From: Syntrophomonadaceae bacterium
GTDB taxonomy: Bacteria > Bacillota > PH28-bin88
Reading direction: 5' to 3'
Assembly (NCBI GenBank): GCA_018333865.1
Contig: JAGXSE010000027.1
Span: 1 to 64,000, forward strand
Length of the DNA: 64,000 nt
In this document: positions 465 through 10,589 of the stretch, piece after piece
How the letters are laid out: every line of letters starts with the position of its first letter
How positions within the stretch are numbered: the first letter of the stretch is position 1
The notes under the pieces: model-generated
The model's input: the letters and a program-made list of their open reading frames with translations, nothing else
Database searches by the model: none
Told to the model about the DNA's origin: nothing
Translations under genes and position numbers: made by a program

Positions 465-510
465 TGGCTCACTTTTTTCCTGGCGTTTCTATGATTAATG
501 GCTCACTTTT
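465..510. repeat. IS21-type end with two TGGCTCACTTTT repeats
   Basis: TGGCTCACTTTT occurs at 465-476 and again at 499-510, in the same orientation and 34 bp apart. IS21-family ends carry multiple short terminal repeats bound by IstA, and this block sits between the IstA fragment and the broken HNH gene, so it marks the outer end of the element. The exact terminal base (about 510-516) cannot be fixed without the empty site. Confidence 0.7.
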
Positions 511-1129
511 ATTGTAGCGAATATAGGTAAGCATCAGTGATAAGGACTTTAAAAGCTCCTTGACCGATTCTTGGCTTGATAATTTGTTCCTTTCCGTATC
601 TATTTGCCAAAGAACTCTCAGCAATACCTATATCCATTATATGTTGTGTTTTAAGCTTGTTTTGTACCTGTTCATATAAAGCCAAGCCGCTTTGTTCATT
701 GGTATCATATGTCTTTCCCTGGACAATATTTCTGTTCCAGTCTTTTGGGACCGGCATCCAATCCTTCTTATCAAAATAGAAAGGCATAGAAAGGATAATG
801 CATCCTATGTTCGGGTCGGGATCAGATAATCGATTGGTCTTTTTATATTTATATATACGATCTCTAAGTTCAATTAGGCTTGTGGCCCCATTGGCAATGC
901 CAAAGGCTTCCCAGGCTAATGACGACGGCAAACTAGAAAACTTCAGAAAGAACCCACCGCCTACAATATAATCATTGGGGCTATGTAATTTAAACAAAAA
1001 GAGGTCCCCTTCATTTAGAGCCCTAAAGTTTGTAGCCCCTCCGGGTTTCCAAAAGTTGATTTCATCACAATTTGCTTGTTTGAGGGTTCTGAACCAATTA
1101 AAATCGGTTATTCCAACATACATTTTCAT
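509..1129 (-). pseudogene. Putative restriction endonuclease truncated before its HNH domain
   Basis: The product starts MKMYVGITDFNWFRTLKQ and contains GGGFFLKF, SLAWEAFG and DWNRNIVQGKTYD, the conserved N-terminal domain (EVE/PUA-like by general resemblance) of a family of HNH restriction endonucleases. Intact relatives continue from GQGAFRVLVTDAY into a Cys-containing HNH domain of about 90 residues. Here the protein reads GQGAFKVLITDAYLYSLQ and stops at 509, exactly where the IS21-type end begins, so the nuclease domain is lost. The remaining 206 residues could still bind DNA, but cleavage is not expected. It lies downstream of another HNH gene in the same orientation. Confidence 0.8.
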
Positions 1130-1209: not shown

Positions 1210-2136
1210 TTACCCAGCCTTGATAAATCTATCATATCTCATTTCGAGTTTTTCCTGATCCGGCCACAGTGTTCTACTACTTGGAAGTATAATTCTCTTA
1301 TCATGGAATTGCTGAATCCCATAAAGAAGCATTGGCCCATCTTTTTCTAACAGGATGTCTTTCCTCACTTCTATTTTATACTCAGGGGTTACCCCAATAA
1401 TATTGCTATCAAATGCAGCGTGGTGAATTTTACACAAAGAAAGCCCATTATTTACATTTGATTCACCGTATACTTCAGAATCAGGTATTATATGAGCTGC
1501 ATCAAGAAGTTCAATATGCCGGAGTCGGCAGAATGTGCATTGCTGGTGATATGCTTCAAGAACTCTTTCCCTAAACGATTTTTGATGTAATCGTGTTTTA
1601 ATAGTAGAAGTTATGTAACTGCGCTTGTAATAAGCGCTTTCGTCTGCAACCAAGGAACCCTGACTTGAATTTAGACTGTTCAGGTATTGTCCAATTGACA
1701 TTTGTTCGTCTGCCGCTAATGTGAAAGACAAAGCCTTCGGGTTATCTCCGATAACAAAAACCGGCCATACCGCCAAGTATTTGCTTTTAACTATGCCATG
1801 AAAATAGATCAGAGGTATTTGTCTAACCATTGCTTCTCTTAATCCTACATTGTCACGATGGTTGATATCAGTCCCTCTATAACGGTATTCAAGAAAGCCG
1901 TCCTTAGTAAAAACGTCATCATACGGCCCGCCAGCCACAGTAGTAATTGATAACGGCACCTTCTCTAATACTTTCGGTTTCCAAATCCCTGAAGGACCGA
2001 CCAGAGTGACTTGCTGGCTGTTCAATATGAACCCCTTTTCAAGAATGGAACGTGGAAGAACCTCACCATGGATTTGAACCTGCTCTTCAATCCATTTAAA
2101 TGCGGCTAGTCTATATTGCTCTTCCAATACAGCCAC
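1210..2136 (-). CDS. HNH endonuclease (HNH_2 type), probable restriction nuclease
   Basis: A 308-residue protein with two parts. Residues about 20-150 (GPSGIWKPK, PLSITT, YRYRGTD, HRDNVGLREAM, YLAVWPVFV) form the conserved N-terminal domain found before many HNH_2 nucleases, probably for DNA recognition. Residues about 195-260 form the HNH domain: CTFC, LLDAAHIIPDSE, VNNGLSLCKIHHAAFD. The first His, the Asn and the final HH are all present, so it looks catalytically intact. Such proteins are usually annotated as putative (often modification-dependent) restriction enzymes. No methyltransferase is visible nearby, which fits a modification-dependent role but does not prove it. Confidence 0.8.
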   Translation of the reverse strand: MAVLEEQYRLAAFKWIEEQVQIHGEVLPRSILEKGFILNSQQVTLVGPSGIWKPKVLEKVPLSITTVAGGPYDDVFTKDGFLEYRYRGTDINHRDNVGLREAMVRQIPLIYFHGIVKSKYLAVWPVFVIGDNPKALSFTLAADEQMSIGQYLNSLNSSQGSLVADESAYYKRSYITSTIKTRLHQKSFRERVLEAYHQQCTFCRLRHIELLDAAHIIPDSEVYGESNVNNGLSLCKIHHAAFDSNIIGVTPEYKIEVRKDILLEKDGPMLLYGIQQFHDKRIILPSSRTLWPDQEKLEMRYDRFIKAG

Positions 2137-2147
2137 CCCAGTCTATC

Positions 2148-2342
2148 TCATTCTTCAACTAATACCTGATAAGCCATTTTCTCGGGTATAACCCCTATTA
2201 CTCCACCTCTTGGATTTGCCATATCGCCTACCCGTCTTGGAATAAGGTGAATATGGCAATGCAACACAGTCAAGTTATCGTTATGAATAATGTGACTATA
2301 CCAATTATATGGATAATGGGAAGTCTCTTTATTTAGACTTAC
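2148..2342 (-). pseudogene. HIT-family C-terminal remnant
   Basis: An open stretch of 64 codons ends in HCHIHLIPRRVGDMANPRGG followed by VIGVIPEKMAYQV. HxHxHxxPR is the histidine-triad nucleotide-binding and catalytic motif, and the NPRGG...VIPEK tail is typical of HIT hydrolases. The N-terminal half (the usual CIFC...ETxHxxV part and about 70 residues) is missing: only ETSHYPYNWY remains, and no start with a ribosome site is seen before the stop of the STAND gene, which it nearly abuts. Read as a decayed gene left between the STAND gene and the HNH gene. Confidence 0.65.
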
Positions 2343-5300
2343 TTAACTCCTTGAATTATGTAATTAATTTTTCCTGTTGTAGTATCATCGTATAAACAAT
2401 ACACCCCTGAAAGTTCTAACCATTTTAAATGTCGGCGCCTACTTAGAGATTCTCCAAGAATTTGTTTTTCTCCTAGGCATGTCCAAAATACTTTCAGTTT
2501 GTTTTCTGTAAGAAACTTGAGAAATATATCTTTCATAATTAATAGACAAGAAGATTTACCCGTCTGCACTGAAACATCAAAACAAACAGCCTCTCCCTTT
2601 TGATTAAGCCACTCTCCAATATTTTTTGAATATTGTAGTTTCATGCCGGAATAAATATACTCATGTGGCGCAAGATATGATGGCTGATCCTCGCCGTCTA
2701 ATCTTGATTCCCATCTATGCCCCTCAGTTGTAGGCATTACAAGGGCCATTACTTGTTCTTTATTATCTCTTCTATTTTTATATACTTTTTTCCAGTTAAG
2801 TTCATTATACTTTGTATTATTAAAATAACGATAGGCCGGTGACCAGTAAAACTCACGACTAAATACCTGGTACTGTTCATTCCCTTCAGGGAACCATCTT
2901 CCCATAAAGTGTTGATCTTTTAACCAACATAATAATTCCTCTGCTTTCTCTTCTTTTATTAAGTAACTTCTTATTTGATACCAAAGGCGTTTATATGGGG
3001 TTTCATATTTATCTCGCCCTATAGGTACAGGTTCCTCCCAGGAAGGATGGGCTTCCAATACTAGCCATTCATTTTTTTTATTATAAGTAACAGTTATTAA
3101 CGATTGTGGATCAGGAAGATTATCAGCTTTTATTACCCAGTTTTCATTTGTATCAACCCAATCAACATACTCCTCTAATATCCTGATAATATTCTCCTGA
3201 GGCAATTGCAAGTTTGAATTTACAACGGTCGGATCAATATTTCTAACAAATGGTTCCCAAGGTCCTTGATACCATACTTTTCCCTTTCTGTCATTATAAG
3301 AATCTATCATTTTATAATTATCAGAAAGGCGGGCCAAGATTTCATAAAAAGATAGCCATTGATATTTTTTCCCAATTCTTTCCGCTTTGTTTCTATATCT
3401 ATCACCACTACTTGCATTTCGATCAAAGCGACCATGTTTTTCAACGTCGTATCCATATTTGCTGAAAATCAATTGACAAGCATAATTACTTAAGTCATTA
3501 GGGTCAAACTTATTCCAATTATGTACTGCACTCTGAAATATATAGCGACCAAAATCACCATATCCGCCAACTCCTCGTCCATATTCAGTTACCATTGAAC
3601 TTAATATTTCATTTTGCCCCCAATAATAATCTTTGAAGTTTTCCGCTTTGTAATCATATCTATAAGAATCTATTTCATCATTTGTCGGAAAAGTAGATGG
3701 AAAAGTACTTTTATATGGAGGACGAATTATCTTCATATCTTCAAGATTTATGTGTCCTTTATATTGCGCATATTCAACAATATTTCTTGCATAGTCTCTC
3801 ACTAATATATTTGGATATACTTCATCCTTACTAAAAAAACTTTCAACGATATAGCGTGAAAGATTTCCTAAGCCCTCCAGGTTATCTGAGCGTAAAACAG
3901 CACCGTATGCAGCAGCAAAGACACGCTCAGATACATAAGGGTCGTTGACTTCTTCAAATGCTGATAAGAGTTTTATTATCGTTGTTAAATTATTTTCCAA
4001 CAATACAACCAGTGCCTTAGTTGCCGAATCACGGAATAGTATATTTGTACTGGTAAAAAGCCATGCAAGAGCCATAGCTGCCAATAAACGTGAATCTGTC
4101 GACAAATACGATTTGTCGTCATTTAATTTTGCCCAATTAATAAGCCTATTCATGGCGGTTCCTTCGTGGTCCTGGTCATGAAGATAAGTAGTCCAGATAC
4201 TATCCCTTTGTGCTAAAGTATGTTTCATTAAATATTGATGAAAACTATCTGCGTTGTAAAAATGATAGGGGTCTGTAGAAACCGAATACACTACCTGAAA
4301 GAATAAATCACGCGTATACTCATAAGGAAGAAGGTATTTATTTACATATTTTTTTGTGTTTTCCTTTATTGATTCCGGCTTTCTCCAGATTAAGCTATTT
4401 ATAAACGATTCTTTAACCGATATAAAAGCTTTTTGTTGTTCATCAAGTAATTCATAAAGTTCTTTCCCTGTTCTTTCAGGTATCTGAATTGATAGAGCTT
4501 CCAATATTCCTTGTTTAAGATTTGAACTGTCAATACAACAGGCTAGCTTTCCATTATTTTTGAAGATTGTTTCCAAATTGTCATTGTCAAGATTAATGTC
4601 CAGTAAATAAGAAGCCGTAAGATGATCTTCAAATCGCTCATAAGCCAGATAAACAAATTCTTCATATTTCCCTCCCTCAAACCAGAATAAATTTTTTGAT
4701 AATACACCTTCTGATATGAGGGCATCAAGAAAGCGACGTTTATTGCTATACTTGGATAAAATTCTGTCGGCTATATCAAAAGCATCTTCATATGTAACGA
4801 AATCAAGACCATTTTTTAATTTATGTTCTACTAATCCGTCAATAACCATATGGACAATTTTCCGCCTTGGCGGATAATCAAAAAGCGAGGGGCTCGAAAG
4901 CTTATTATCAATGCTTTCAATGAAAAAATCTATAATGCTACTAATACCTCCATAACCTTTCGGCATTTTAGTTAACCCTGAACGGTATAACCCCTCACAA
5001 AACAATTTAAGAAATAAAGGGTTACTAAATTCGGGGTGAAGCAATGGGATACTCGGTTGTTCAATACCATATTGTGTAAAGAAGAAACTAGAAGCATAAT
5101 GTTCAACACCTTCAAAACCCAAATGATCAAGTTTGATGATTTTGTTGTCAGATATCAAATCCTCGGGTATAAGCAATCTTTCATAAGATGAACGGATGCT
5201 AAGGACTAGTCCAAGCCAAGGATATTTTTTAAATTCATTCACAAATCCTCTTATGTGTTCAGTCCAAAAATACTTACCTCTACCCTCGTTTATTGCATCG

Positions 5301-6541
5301 ATGATAAATAGGAGTCTTTCTCCTTGAGCCTCTGCTTTAGCATTTAAAGCACCTAACAACTCGCTTTCATTACATTTAACCCTGAGTAAATTACGAAGAA
5401 TCTGTGTCCAGGGAGATTCCTCTGTAGAGAAATGCTGCCCCAAAACGAACATACATGCCTTATTTCCTCTTATCTTGTTTATTGCTACATCAGCCAACAA
5501 ATGTGATTTACCAATACCAGCAGGCCCGGAAAGCAAGACTCTGGGGAAATTTGCTAATGCTATTGATGTTCCTTGAATAAAACTAGAGAATTCATATAAT
5601 GCTCTCCATAGTTTATTTATTTCATACTTAGAATAGTTATTTAATTCTTTACTTTCATTTTTATTTTCATCTATATATCTCTCGCATTGGGAGAGAGCTA
5701 TTTTAATAGTATTTATATTTTCTTCTAATGAAGATGTATCAATTGGGATGATTCCCATTTTTTGCGATAACAAGTATCCAGATTCGAGGTTATCTTTAGC
5801 GTCTATTATTTTATTTAATTCATCTACGGTTGGTAATCCAGACAATTTACTTAAAGCTTTATTAATAGTTAACAGCAATTCATGAAATTTCTCTTGCATA
5901 TATATTCGGTAAGAATCATTTCTACTTATAAAATCGAATGCCTTTGCAATTTCCAATTTAATATTTAATTCAGGAGTATAACGTTTTCCTAAATTATTTA
6001 CACTGTTTTCAACATGAGTTTTGAACCATTCATCTGAAAATTCCTCCTGAGAAAACCAGAACAGTGTTCTACCAACATGCTTTTCTTGGGACAGTCTATG
6101 GATGAGTTCGGAACTCCCCCAATACTCAAAATCAATCTGTCTCCCTTTATTTTGGGCGTAATCAGTCCATTCCTGCACTTTTTCATTCCATCGATCCATA
6201 AACCACATTTGGTTATCCCGTCTGGGGTCCTGCCTGTCCAAAGGAATACAAATATAGTATTTCTTAAGATTGGGATGTGTTCTTAAAGCAGTTTCATACG
6301 ATTCTTTCAATTGATTCCACTGCGGGTTACCTATTGAAGTAAAATACTTAGCTTGCCAACCATACTCATCTCCGTTGTTTAAAACGCAATATGCTTCAAC
6401 TCCACCATCTGGAGCAGCAATACGGTAGAACCCCTTTTTATTAGGTATTTCTTCTTCTCTAGCCAGCTGGCATACTAACTCTTCAAAGGCATTATTCTTT
6501 GAGTTATTAAATGATCTTATATTATTCCAATCAATAGCCAT
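2339..6541 (-). CDS. Avs-like antiviral STAND NTPase with N-terminal PD-(D/E)XK nuclease
   Basis: A 1400-residue protein. Residues 15-70 carry an Mrr/Cap4-like nuclease signature: FEELV (20-23), DGGVE (45-49) and QAK (63-65), the acidic and Lys positions of a PD-(D/E)XK site. The central STAND NTPase shows Walker A GPAGIGKS (339-346), Walker B LLFIIDAINE (410-419) and an SIRSS sensor segment (448-452), followed by a helical region and about 700 residues of repeat-like C-terminus. This is the layout of antiviral STAND (Avs) proteins, where the C-terminal sensor binds a phage protein, the NTPase oligomerises and the nuclease degrades DNA. The start at 6541 has AAGGAGAAAGG, 22 bp after the ATPase gene, indicating co-translation. 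The Avs subtype cannot be assigned by eye. Confidence 0.82.
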   Translation of the reverse strand: MAIDWNNIRSFNNSKNNAFEELVCQLAREEEIPNKKGFYRIAAPDGGVEAYCVLNNGDEYGWQAKYFTSIGNPQWNQLKESYETALRTHPNLKKYYICIPLDRQDPRRDNQMWFMDRWNEKVQEWTDYAQNKGRQIDFEYWGSSELIHRLSQEKHVGRTLFWFSQEEFSDEWFKTHVENSVNNLGKRYTPELNIKLEIAKAFDFISRNDSYRIYMQEKFHELLLTINKALSKLSGLPTVDELNKIIDAKDNLESGYLLSQKMGIIPIDTSSLEENINTIKIALSQCERYIDENKNESKELNNYSKYEINKLWRALYEFSSFIQGTSIALANFPRVLLSGPAGIGKSHLLADVAINKIRGNKACMFVLGQHFSTEESPWTQILRNLLRVKCNESELLGALNAKAEAQGERLLFIIDAINEGRGKYFWTEHIRGFVNEFKKYPWLGLVLSIRSSYERLLIPEDLISDNKIIKLDHLGFEGVEHYASSFFFTQYGIEQPSIPLLHPEFSNPLFLKLFCEGLYRSGLTKMPKGYGGISSIIDFFIESIDNKLSSPSLFDYPPRRKIVHMVIDGLVEHKLKNGLDFVTYEDAFDIADRILSKYSNKRRFLDALISEGVLSKNLFWFEGGKYEEFVYLAYERFEDHLTASYLLDINLDNDNLETIFKNNGKLACCIDSSNLKQGILEALSIQIPERTGKELYELLDEQQKAFISVKESFINSLIWRKPESIKENTKKYVNKYLLPYEYTRDLFFQVVYSVSTDPYHFYNADSFHQYLMKHTLAQRDSIWTTYLHDQDHEGTAMNRLINWAKLNDDKSYLSTDSRLLAAMALAWLFTSTNILFRDSATKALVVLLENNLTTIIKLLSAFEEVNDPYVSERVFAAAYGAVLRSDNLEGLGNLSRYIVESFFSKDEVYPNILVRDYARNIVEYAQYKGHINLEDMKIIRPPYKSTFPSTFPTNDEIDSYRYDYKAENFKDYYWGQNEILSSMVTEYGRGVGGYGDFGRYIFQSAVHNWNKFDPNDLSNYACQLIFSKYGYDVEKHGRFDRNASSGDRYRNKAERIGKKYQWLSFYEILARLSDNYKMIDSYNDRKGKVWYQGPWEPFVRNIDPTVVNSNLQLPQENIIRILEEYVDWVDTNENWVIKADNLPDPQSLITVTYNKKNEWLVLEAHPSWEEPVPIGRDKYETPYKRLWYQIRSYLIKEEKAEELLCWLKDQHFMGRWFPEGNEQYQVFSREFYWSPAYRYFNNTKYNELNWKKVYKNRRDNKEQVMALVMPTTEGHRWESRLDGEDQPSYLAPHEYIYSGMKLQYSKNIGEWLNQKGEAVCFDVSVQTGKSSCLLIMKDIFLKFLTENKLKVFWTCLGEKQILGESLSRRRHLKWLELSGVYCLYDDTTTGKINYIIQGVK

Positions 6542-6563
6542 ATACCTTTCTCCTTAGAATTTA

Positions 6564-8747
6564 CTAACTTGCATTTATTAGACTAGCTACTTCATTATAT
6601 AGATTTATAAGGTGCTCAATAGTGAGGTCAAGGATTGGTTCGTACATAAACGAGTTCAGATGGATGTTTGAACTGACTGTAATGTTGACCTTTTCTAAGG
6701 TACGAATAGCAGGTGCTGATGGATCCAATAATGAAAACTCCTTGATGAGATATCCAAATTGAGCATTAGAACTACACCAGTATTCCTGATCGTTTTTTTG
6801 TATTCGAAGCTTGTCAGTCATCATTATCTCAGCTTTAATCCGTATCGCCATACATAGCAATACTTTATTCTCGAGGTTTAACCCATCATGCATGCCTAAA
6901 CTGCAAATTTCATCAGCCTTCTGAAATAACAAATTTTTCAAAATGGTATGATTATCTGTTGGATAATTTGTTCCGAACAGGTTGTTGTATATGTTCAGAT
7001 AATCCCCTACAGTAATATGATCTGTTTCCCTCTTCCAATGAAGAAGACTGGTGAGTTTAATATAATCAGAGTGGCTTTCTCCTTTGGTATATTCAATCAA
7101 ATTACGTGTGAATGGAATGGATGCACACAAAATAACATTATCGCTATGAATGTTATTTTTCCACTTGCCAATAAAATAATTTTTTACTCCCTCTGCTTTT
7201 GCAAGACAGATAGATGTGTCATTTTTGATGGTCATTAGGCATCTGTCACGATGCACAAATGTGGTTGCTAGTGTTCGGAAAAAATCATAGTTGTGAGTTA
7301 ATATTATCTGATGAAAATTATCGGTATTGGTTAAATCTCTTAAGTATTGAACGATGGCATGTTTATTCTTGTAGTCAAATGAATCTGCAATATCATCGAA
7401 AACAAATAGTGTCTCCTGACTATTCAACTTCCTTGATTCGACTTCAAAAATGAAGTTTAGAAGATATAAAGCTCGTTTTTCTCCTTGGCTTAGTGTTTTC
7501 AGTTCAGAGCGTGACCATTCAACAGAGTCATTACCGTCTTGAAAAATAAATCTTAATTGTGCATTCTCTTTTCCTAGTGCAACTTCTGTCTGATTTGCAA
7601 TAAACAAGGTAAATGGCATATCTACAAAGCGATCATTAAAAAGATCTACAGCTTTTGTCCATCGGGGTACAACTTGCGAAGCTGCAACCTCAATACTTTG
7701 AAGTTCATCTTTGTTTAGATTATATGTCCTAAAATATGCTTCGGCATCAGGGCTTTTCTGGACATAATAAGCCCAAAGATTCTGACGAAACTGCGATTGT
7801 TTCTCTGGCTTTAAATTATCGAGAAGGAACTCTACCTGGGTATAAGTCAGATTCTCAATTAGATCAACTAAAGCCTGGGTTTGTGCGTTTTTTGCTAGGT
7901 TATTTCTAAGTTTTTTTAGTGTCTCGTCAGTATCAATTCTTTCTAAAATTCGTTTATGTTTCAGATCAAGCTCATCTTGACTAATAGAAGTTTGATCGCC
8001 CCTGAGGTGAACACGATGCCCGCCCTTAAAGAATCCCTGTTTTTTTAACGTTTCAAATGATGTTTCTGCTTTTATTGGATTAAAAATACCTTTTGTATAA
8101 ATTGAGTCATCACTGTTGAAGAGTTCCTGGTAACGATTATTAAACTCATTCGCTTTTGATACAAACTCCTGGCTATTCAGTATCTCAATGGCTTTAGGAT
8201 CAAAAATGGTTGCATATTCATAAGGTTCTAATTCATCCTCAACCGAATGCTCCAATGTTTTTGCTATGCAAATCGGGAAATCTCTTGTATCAAAATCCTT
8301 AAGAATTAGTTGTTCGATATCATTTTTTTTAACTTTCGATAACTTCTGAAGGGCACCTATAAGTTTATTTTTCATCTTATCAAGCTCAATAATAAGTTCA
8401 TCGTATCTTGCCTTATTCTCAGGATTAACAAGTATGTTTGTTATAGCAGGGGTTTCGGATTTAATGTCTATTTCCGACTTTAAGACATAAATTGCTTCTT
8501 TCGAAATGGGGCTTTCATTTAATTCGATTATACATGTTGTTGGTCGGTTATATCGTTCTTCTTTAGGTCGTTCGCCCTTTGCGATATCTTCGAACGTCTT
8601 AGTAAAAGAAGTCTTCATTGATCCATTGGGAGCATAGATAGCGTAAGCTTTGGCTTTAGGATTCCCTGTACTATTGTTAAATTCGAAATTGTGCTCGAAT
8701 TCCTTTATGCCATAGCAGTTTTTTAAAATAACTTTTAGCATACTCAT
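6564..8747 (-). CDS. AAA/ABC-type ATPase of a defence-island family (RloC/PrrC-like head)
   Basis: A protein of about 727 residues. In the longest frame (M1 at 8759), the N-terminus LKNCYGIKEF leads into a P-loop APNGSMKTS (43-51) in which the first and last glycines of GxxGxGK[ST] are Ala and Met. Then follow a long helical insertion, ABC signature LSQGEKR (423-429), Walker B LFVFDD (451-456) and an H-loop LTHNYDFF (His489). This is the SMC/ABC head plan seen in AAA_13 and RloC-like proteins. The C-terminal 220 residues resemble no domain I can name; RNLIE (552-556) and later His residues are only loosely like an anticodon-nuclease site. GGAAGGT sits before the ATG codons at 8747 and 8741, so the start is one of these rather than 8759. 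It is the first gene of the cassette with the STAND gene. Confidence 0.72.
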   Translation of the reverse strand: MSMLKVILKNCYGIKEFEHNFEFNNSTGNPKAKAYAIYAPNGSMKTSFTKTFEDIAKGERPKEERYNRPTTCIIELNESPISKEAIYVLKSEIDIKSETPAITNILVNPENKARYDELIIELDKMKNKLIGALQKLSKVKKNDIEQLILKDFDTRDFPICIAKTLEHSVEDELEPYEYATIFDPKAIEILNSQEFVSKANEFNNRYQELFNSDDSIYTKGIFNPIKAETSFETLKKQGFFKGGHRVHLRGDQTSISQDELDLKHKRILERIDTDETLKKLRNNLAKNAQTQALVDLIENLTYTQVEFLLDNLKPEKQSQFRQNLWAYYVQKSPDAEAYFRTYNLNKDELQSIEVAASQVVPRWTKAVDLFNDRFVDMPFTLFIANQTEVALGKENAQLRFIFQDGNDSVEWSRSELKTLSQGEKRALYLLNFIFEVESRKLNSQETLFVFDDIADSFDYKNKHAIVQYLRDLTNTDNFHQIILTHNYDFFRTLATTFVHRDRCLMTIKNDTSICLAKAEGVKNYFIGKWKNNIHSDNVILCASIPFTRNLIEYTKGESHSDYIKLTSLLHWKRETDHITVGDYLNIYNNLFGTNYPTDNHTILKNLLFQKADEICSLGMHDGLNLENKVLLCMAIRIKAEIMMTDKLRIQKNDQEYWCSSNAQFGYLIKEFSLLDPSAPAIRTLEKVNITVSSNIHLNSFMYEPILDLTIEHLINLYNEVASLINAS

Positions 8748-8759
8748 AATACCTTCCAT

Positions 8760-9221: not shown

Positions 9222-10589
9222 CTACGTATCTTTCCTTTGCATTCCTACCACGCACTCTGTATGATGCGTATGTGGAAACATATCCACTGGCTGGACAGTA
9301 CCAAGGGAATAGTTTTTAGCGGCCAAATAGTGGAGGTCCCTGGCCAGGGTTGCTGGGTTACAGGAAACGTATACGATCCGCTCTGGTTCCATGTTGATGA
9401 CTGTTTCAAGCACCTGGTGGCTGCAGCCTTGCCGGGGCGGGTCTAGCACCACGACTTTCGGGCGGACACCCTGGTTGTATAGGTCTGGCAGAATGGTTTC
9501 AGCCTCTCCTGCCAGGAAACTGACGTTTTCAATCCCGTTTAGTCTGGCGTTTTTTTTCGCATCCTCTACAGCTTTCTCGAAAGTCTCCACTCCATAAACC
9601 AGACCGGCGCTTTTAGCTAAAAATAAGGATATGGCGCCCGTGCCACAGTAGACATCTACAGCCGTATCATTTGTACTTAGCCCAGCCGTTTCCTCAACCA
9701 GGTTGAAAAGTTTTTCGGCCATAATTGAATTGACCTGAAAAAAAGAACCGGGTGAAATCAAAAACTGAAAATCTCCGACCAGTTCCATGATCTGGTCCCT
9801 TCCGCTGAGCAGAATATTGTTTTCGCTTAACGGCAAAGCAGAATCCCGGTCTGTTACATTTTGGATAACTGAGACAAGCTCTGGCCTGTCCTCTGTTAAG
9901 GCCGCAGTTATGCCTTGCAGAGAAAGGGAAGCAGACGTGGTTACCAGCACCAGCATCATTTCGCCGGTGGCTAACCCCTGGCGGAGTAACACCCCATCCA
10001 ACTGACACTTGCCATTTTCAAAAAGACTGTCTCTTATTTTCCCGGTATTAACTAGCTGCTCCAATTCCAGCGCCAGGCCGACCATGTTTCTGGGCAGCAA
10101 AGCGCACTCGATATTTCCTCCCAAAGTATGGGAGGCTGCTTGGAAAAAACCCAATTTAATATTTCCCTTATCTGATGTCACATGAAAGTAAGCCTTGTTG
10201 CGGTAATGCCACGGGTTGTCCATGCCGATAATTGGCCTCAGGTGATAGCCATCCAGTTTCCCAATCCGGCGCAAGGCCTGATCCAGTTGTTCGGCCTTTA
10301 TTTGCAGTTGCTTGCTGTACTCAATGTGCTGGTAGTGACAGCCCCCGCAGAGGGTAAAATCGCTGCAGTAAGGATCTATCCGGGCCGGCGATGGACGAAT
10401 AACATGAAGAAGACTGGCTCTGGCAAAATTTTTTTTAACTTCAGTCACCTTACAGGAAACTTGCTCACCGGGGACGGTGTCAGGAACAAAAACTACAAAT
10501 TTGGCTAGCCGGCCTACCCCTTCTCCCCGGTACCCGGTGCCTTCAATATCAATATTGATCACATCTCCTGGCCGCAATAGCGAAATCAC
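9222..10589 (-). CDS. rlmD: 23S rRNA (uracil-C5)-methyltransferase, RumA/RlmD family
   Basis: This 455-residue enzyme methylates C5 of uridines in 23S rRNA using S-adenosylmethionine. An N-terminal TRAM domain (about 1-60) is followed by the [4Fe-4S] cysteines Cys75, Cys81 and Cys84 (CSDFTLCGGC), with a fourth in IECALLP. The Rossmann methyltransferase domain shows DVYCGTGAISLF, then DPPRQGC, then the catalytic-Cys motif YVSCNPATLARD. Length is normal. It starts with GTG at 10589, 24 bp after the CPBP protease gene. In Gram-positives one enzyme of this family can modify more than one uridine (RlmCD), so the exact target is not fixed by sequence alone. Confidence 0.9.
   Translation of the reverse strand: MISLLRPGDVINIDIEGTGYRGEGVGRLAKFVVFVPDTVPGEQVSCKVTEVKKNFARASLLHVIRPSPARIDPYCSDFTLCGGCHYQHIEYSKQLQIKAEQLDQALRRIGKLDGYHLRPIIGMDNPWHYRNKAYFHVTSDKGNIKLGFFQAASHTLGGNIECALLPRNMVGLALELEQLVNTGKIRDSLFENGKCQLDGVLLRQGLATGEMMLVLVTTSASLSLQGITAALTEDRPELVSVIQNVTDRDSALPLSENNILLSGRDQIMELVGDFQFLISPGSFFQVNSIMAEKLFNLVEETAGLSTNDTAVDVYCGTGAISLFLAKSAGLVYGVETFEKAVEDAKKNARLNGIENVSFLAGEAETILPDLYNQGVRPKVVVLDPPRQGCSHQVLETVINMEPERIVYVSCNPATLARDLHYLAAKNYSLGTVQPVDMFPHTHHTECVVGMQRKDT

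Follow-up and report, generated by a model that had tools for sequence, protein, structure and literature searches.

Adjacent Avs2 and PDC-S46 ATPase genes in a bacterial defense island are probably independent modules

The window analyzed here is a stretch of 64,000 nucleotides from a Syntrophomonadaceae bacterium (contig JAGXSE010000027.1, positions 1 to 64,000). Its minus strand carries two long open reading frames arranged head to tail, an ATPase gene (6564-8759) followed by an Avs2 gene (2339-6541), at the place given by the initial annotation. The features of the locus are as follows.

6564-8759, minus strand: PDC-S46-family ABC/SMC-head ATPase (open reading frame, PADLOC, conservation, predicted fold)
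6564-7187, minus strand: C-terminal helical domain of the ATPase, residues 525-731, a candidate RNase domain (conservation and spacing, model)
6542-6563, minus strand: intergenic gap of 22 nt with the ribosome site TAAGGAG (sequence)
2339-6541, minus strand: Avs2, 1400 residues, with nuclease, NACHT/STAND NTPase and repeat sensor (profiles, PDB matches, fold)
1210-2136, minus strand: HNH endonuclease, 308 residues (open reading frame, profile matches)
509-1129, minus strand: second HNH endonuclease, N-terminal two thirds (open reading frame, comparison with relatives)

The 22-nt spacing and strong ribosome site noted in the initial annotation are both present, with TAAGGAG lying ∼8 nt before the Avs2 ATG. 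Such close spacing, together with a good ribosome site, suggests co-expression of the ATPase and Avs2, and co-transcription is plausible from the sequence in this one genome. Even if real, co-transcription is no pointer to a shared mechanism. The two genes lie in an AT-rich island (34-36% GC versus 45-50% beyond), and a gene assigned by eye as rRNA-methyltransferase-like (9222-10589) is found upstream of the ATPase.

Within the same island, 202 bp downstream of Avs2, the intact HNH gene is a neighbor and not part of Avs2. Its product resembles a family that restricts phosphorothioated DNA (62 bits, below the cut-off of 180), and an McrA-like or phosphorothioate-dependent type is suggested by its sequence. 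Full-length relatives with 30-36% identity occur on many plasmids. The second HNH gene is probably a remnant; it breaks off after residue 201 at the end of an insertion sequence, and its relatives have ∼309 residues. This interruption indicates that the island has been rearranged. Past the break we observed a repeated AAAAGTGAGCCA, an IS21 IstA-like start and, further on, a REP-type transposase start.

The downstream protein had been described as following the Avs plan, with a PD-(D/E)XK effector, a STAND NTPase bearing Walker A and B motifs and a long sensor-like C terminus. Each of these elements was borne out, and by its sequence the protein is an ordinary, already known Avs2. It scores 1298.7 bits against the NCBIfam Avs2 model NF041813 (cut-off 1000) and matches the PADLOC Avs2 model PDLC02162 end to end (residues 1-1396, 1490 bits). 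The solved Avs2 structure (PDB 9o4e) aligns with residues 167-1399, and the sensor residues 1019-1390 were separately aligned with the same entry (i-Evalue 6e-79). The layout comprises a PD-(D/E)XK-type nuclease at ∼1-165, a NACHT/STAND NTPase at ∼330-660 and a repeat sensor extending to the C terminus. Pfam NACHT was detected at 335-422 with 27.6 bits, just above the cut-off of 26.7. A Pfam search of residues 1-200 gave no match. Residues Asp-45, Glu-49, Gln-63 and Lys-65 of this region are invariant among relatives, and the first match to its predicted fold (mean pLDDT 81) was the Avs4 nuclease (PDB 8dgf, E = 3e-5). From this conservation and the model, assignment of the N terminus as a PD-(D/E)XK-type nuclease effector holds. 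The same N terminus is present in other Avs2 proteins of the phylum. Members of the Avs2 family recognize the large subunit of phage terminase through the C-terminal sensor. Among the relatives found, the closest full-length Avs2 is encoded on a Moraxella plasmid (L010:2396-9184), where a second nuclease-STAND gene follows it, encoding a 732-residue Cap4-like nuclease plus NACHT protein.

The ATPase reading frame encodes 731 residues, or 727 if translation starts at an in-frame ATG at 8747, four codons in. The shorter length, which the initial annotation had given, is probably correct because GGAAGG lies just upstream of this ATG and the start of an 85% identical relative (L112) corresponds to it. 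The protein scores 747.8 bits against the PADLOC family PDC-S46, with residues 5-727 covering model positions 1-718 of 719. PADLOC gives no function for PDC-S46, and a literature search found no paper naming it. The P-loop is atypical, as originally noted: it reads APNGSMKTS at residues 43-51 (family form APNGxMKTS), with Met-48 and Lys-49 invariant in all 35 aligned PDC-S46 members. In the same alignment the LSQGE signature at 423-427 (LSxGE), the Walker B residues DD455-456 and the H-loop histidine His-489 are conserved. The description as an ABC/SMC-head ATPase also stood. Pfam SMC_N matched below its cut-off (34 bits), and the top Foldseek matches to the predicted structure (mean pLDDT 86) were SMC and Rad50 heads. 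With the whole chain searched against the PDB and viral libraries only such heads were found, because the head dominates the chain.

The initial annotation had gone on to propose that the ATPase is a constant partner of the STAND protein, forming an undescribed Avs arrangement, and had named adjacency of the two genes across distant genomes as the point on which this would turn. A GTDB scan yielded 455 ATPase relatives, of which the best 80 were taken together with as much as 10 kb of DNA to either side (less at contig ends). A tblastn search with the Avs2 protein found no match in any of these 80 loci. When the whole genomes were searched, 3 of the 80 ATPase-bearing genomes had an Avs2 match, in no case in the flanking DNA taken with the ATPase. 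Among 399 genomes of the same phylum, Avs2 occurred in five and PDC-S46 in five, and both occurred only in the genome studied here. The pair was likewise absent from plasmid loci (0/8 with the ATPase, 0/2 with Avs2) and from same-phylum loci (0/4 with Avs2, 0/3 with the ATPase). On viral contigs eight ATPase loci and one Avs2 locus were found, of which L115, the one screened for the other gene, did not show the pair. The closest ATPase relative found, the 85% identical protein from the same phylum mentioned above, has a gene with 86% DNA identity to precisely 6578-8759 of the window, the extent of the ATPase gene, and the DNA on either flank is unrelated. Conservation confined to the gene in this way indicates that the ATPase gene moves alone. 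On these counts of adjacency and co-occurrence a conserved Avs2 partner for the ATPase was rejected, and as far as these data show the adjacency is incidental.

The commonest neighbors of the ATPase across the 80 GTDB loci are restriction-modification (R-M) genes of several types, as is the case for PrrC. In 14 of these best 80 of 455 loci the ATPase has an R-M gene on its own strand at a distance of no more than 200 bp, a raw count not set against a matched base rate, part of which may reflect general clustering of defense genes. The R-M calls, which are backed by Pfam confirmations, include type III Res/Mod genes (L017, L018, L022, L048, L052, L059, L065 and L074), type I HsdR or HsdS genes (L019, L023, L027, L037 and L063) and a type ISP gene (L056). 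An Mrr-nSTAND3 protein (PADLOC PDC-S73) adjoins the PDC-S46 ATPase in four unrelated loci:

L025:12271-14589, L050:2299-3309 and L059:12136-14451, downstream, same strand: Mrr-nSTAND3 with the ATPase
L115:5348-7696, divergent: Mrr-nSTAND3 with the ATPase

Judged by gene order, PDC-S46 and PDC-S73 are a recurring pair, better supported than the pairing with Avs2. DUF2130 proteins were observed directly beside the ATPase at L048:12169-13605, L065:8669-9955 and L092:2812-4134, and at two of these three loci type III R-M genes are present as well.

The ATPase ends in an all-helical domain at ∼525-731 (pLDDT mostly above 90 in the model). No Pfam family or PDB sequence entry recognized these residues, and a search for Pfam HEPN families among the 35 PDC-S46 members found none. 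The domain carries the arrangement R640-X3-E644-X50-55-H700, with Arg, Glu and His each present in 35/35 members, located 83-103 residues from the C terminus; the distance is similar in the RloC-type set. A second set, R552-N-X2-E556-X17-H574, has invariant Arg-552 and His-574, with Glu-556 in 34 of 35, and an N-X-H-X-N-SFM-X-EP motif is invariant. The Rx4-6H form of the HEPN motif is absent from the domain.

The anticodon nucleases PrrC and RloC join an ABC ATPase to a tRNase domain at the C terminus (PMC2610378), and this domain has been assigned to HEPN (PMC3710099). The PDC-S46 ABC region (319-500) is related to that of PF13166 (AAA_13) proteins, with an hhalign probability of 99.1% over the signature, Walker B and ILTHN motif; the Pfam AAA_13 model itself did not match the ATPase at E = 1. 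For the triad, RloC carries R-X3-E-X36-52-H (PMC2610378), and we compared the form R-X3-E-X31-52-H for RloC and PrrC together, relative to which the spacing in PDC-S46 is longer and without alignable context. Direct profile comparison of the C-terminal domain with the RloC-type C terminus gave a probability of 0.4%, so that by this comparison the ATPase could not be placed in the PrrC/RloC group. The CxxC zinc hook that RloC has in its coiled-coil insert is present in only 3 of the 35 PDC-S46 members.

The reading that we favor, at a probability of roughly 0.8, is that of a small, horizontally acquired island containing independent single-gene Avs2 and PDC-S46 modules, the latter being likeliest PrrC/RloC-like. 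The modules would lie head to tail and might share a transcript. By homology, the Avs2 sensor would bind the large terminase subunit of the phage, with oligomerization by the STAND NTPase and DNA cleavage by the N-terminal nuclease. The ATPase would travel alone or with R-M loci. Its ABC/SMC head, by analogy with PrrC and RloC, would sense damaged DNA or the disturbance of a restriction enzyme and so release a putative RNase activity of the helical C-terminal domain, which would stop translation in infected cells. A broader and more tentative proposal, which we regard as somewhat doubtful, is that the PDC-S46 proteins are ABC-gated RNases of a family not yet described. This family would stand alongside PrrC and RloC, have a catalytic domain of its own, back up restriction enzymes of many types as a second line of defense and also move alone.

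A true two-component system in this lineage, in which the ATPase would regulate Avs2 or serve it as a second sensor, would fit the short gap, shared strand and strong ribosome site, and both proteins belong to defense families. We consider it very improbable, however, as the pair was seen at no other GTDB, plasmid or same-phylum locus examined, the closest ATPase relative has no Avs2 and shares DNA only up to the gene ends, and other genes lie beside the closest Avs2 relatives found in the phylum and on plasmids. The ATPase could instead be a PrrC-like R-M accessory, present here as an orphan parted from its R-M partner or working with R-M enzymes in trans. PrrC is silenced by the type I R-M enzyme linked to it, an action in trans has been proposed for RloC (PMC2610378), and the adjoining genes in the 14 of 80 loci span types I, II, III and ISP. 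Most loci, including that of the window and that of the closest relative, nevertheless lack an adjacent R-M gene, the range of R-M types is too wide for a single fixed partner, and a defense-island effect could explain part of the raw count; such a role is possible, with the odds somewhat against it.

The ATPase might also be a DNA-directed SMC/Rad50-like defense protein, as in Lamassu, Septu and Wadjet, whose C-terminal domain has a structural role or brings in a nuclease, for instance the product of the nearby HNH gene. In addition to the Foldseek matches, HNH genes occur in this island and beside the ATPase on a Leptospira plasmid, and in several loci an SbcD/SbcC-like gene pair comes after the ATPase. 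Nevertheless, the HNH gene of the window shows no linkage to the ATPase in the 80 loci, where it has just two weak, distant matches, and the strictly conserved polar Arg, Asn, Glu, His and Lys residues of the C-terminal domain have the character of an active site more than of a scaffold. We judge this explanation unlikely. As a Septu-like PtuB partner, the HNH protein was rejected on a weak PtuB score (PADLOC, E = 0.004) and the same lack of linkage.

The independent-module reading removes the proposed Avs arrangement, in which two closely spaced genes of one defense island had been read as a system. The locus is an ordinary defense island, with one known system, Avs2, and one candidate already on record, the ATPase. 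The ATPase is the more interesting half of the pair. PDC-S46 is a widespread defense candidate without a stated function, for which there is now a concrete, testable prediction of residues, activity and partners.

Compared with Avs2 (AVAST type 2, PDB 9o4e), the STAND protein has the same nuclease-NTPase-sensor layout, a whole-length family match and an alignable sensor; the difference is that residues 1-165 do not align in sequence and instead have a fold like that of the Avs4 nuclease. The ATPase is a member of PDC-S46, a PADLOC single-gene phage defense candidate, from which it shows no difference. Relative to PrrC and RloC, PDC-S46 differs in a C-terminal domain that is not recognizably homologous by profile, a P-loop altered to NGxMK and a unique N-x-H-x-NSFM-x-EP motif, and relative to RloC in the lack of a conserved zinc-hook CxxC and in an E-to-H spacing of 50-55 versus 36-52. 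It resembles them in combining an ABC head, with a related ABC region, and a C-terminal helical domain, and in frequent R-M linkage; an R-X3-E...H pattern reminiscent of their triad lies about as far from the C terminus. That the ATPase is a PrrC or RloC protein is not supported; that it works like one is a reasonable prediction.
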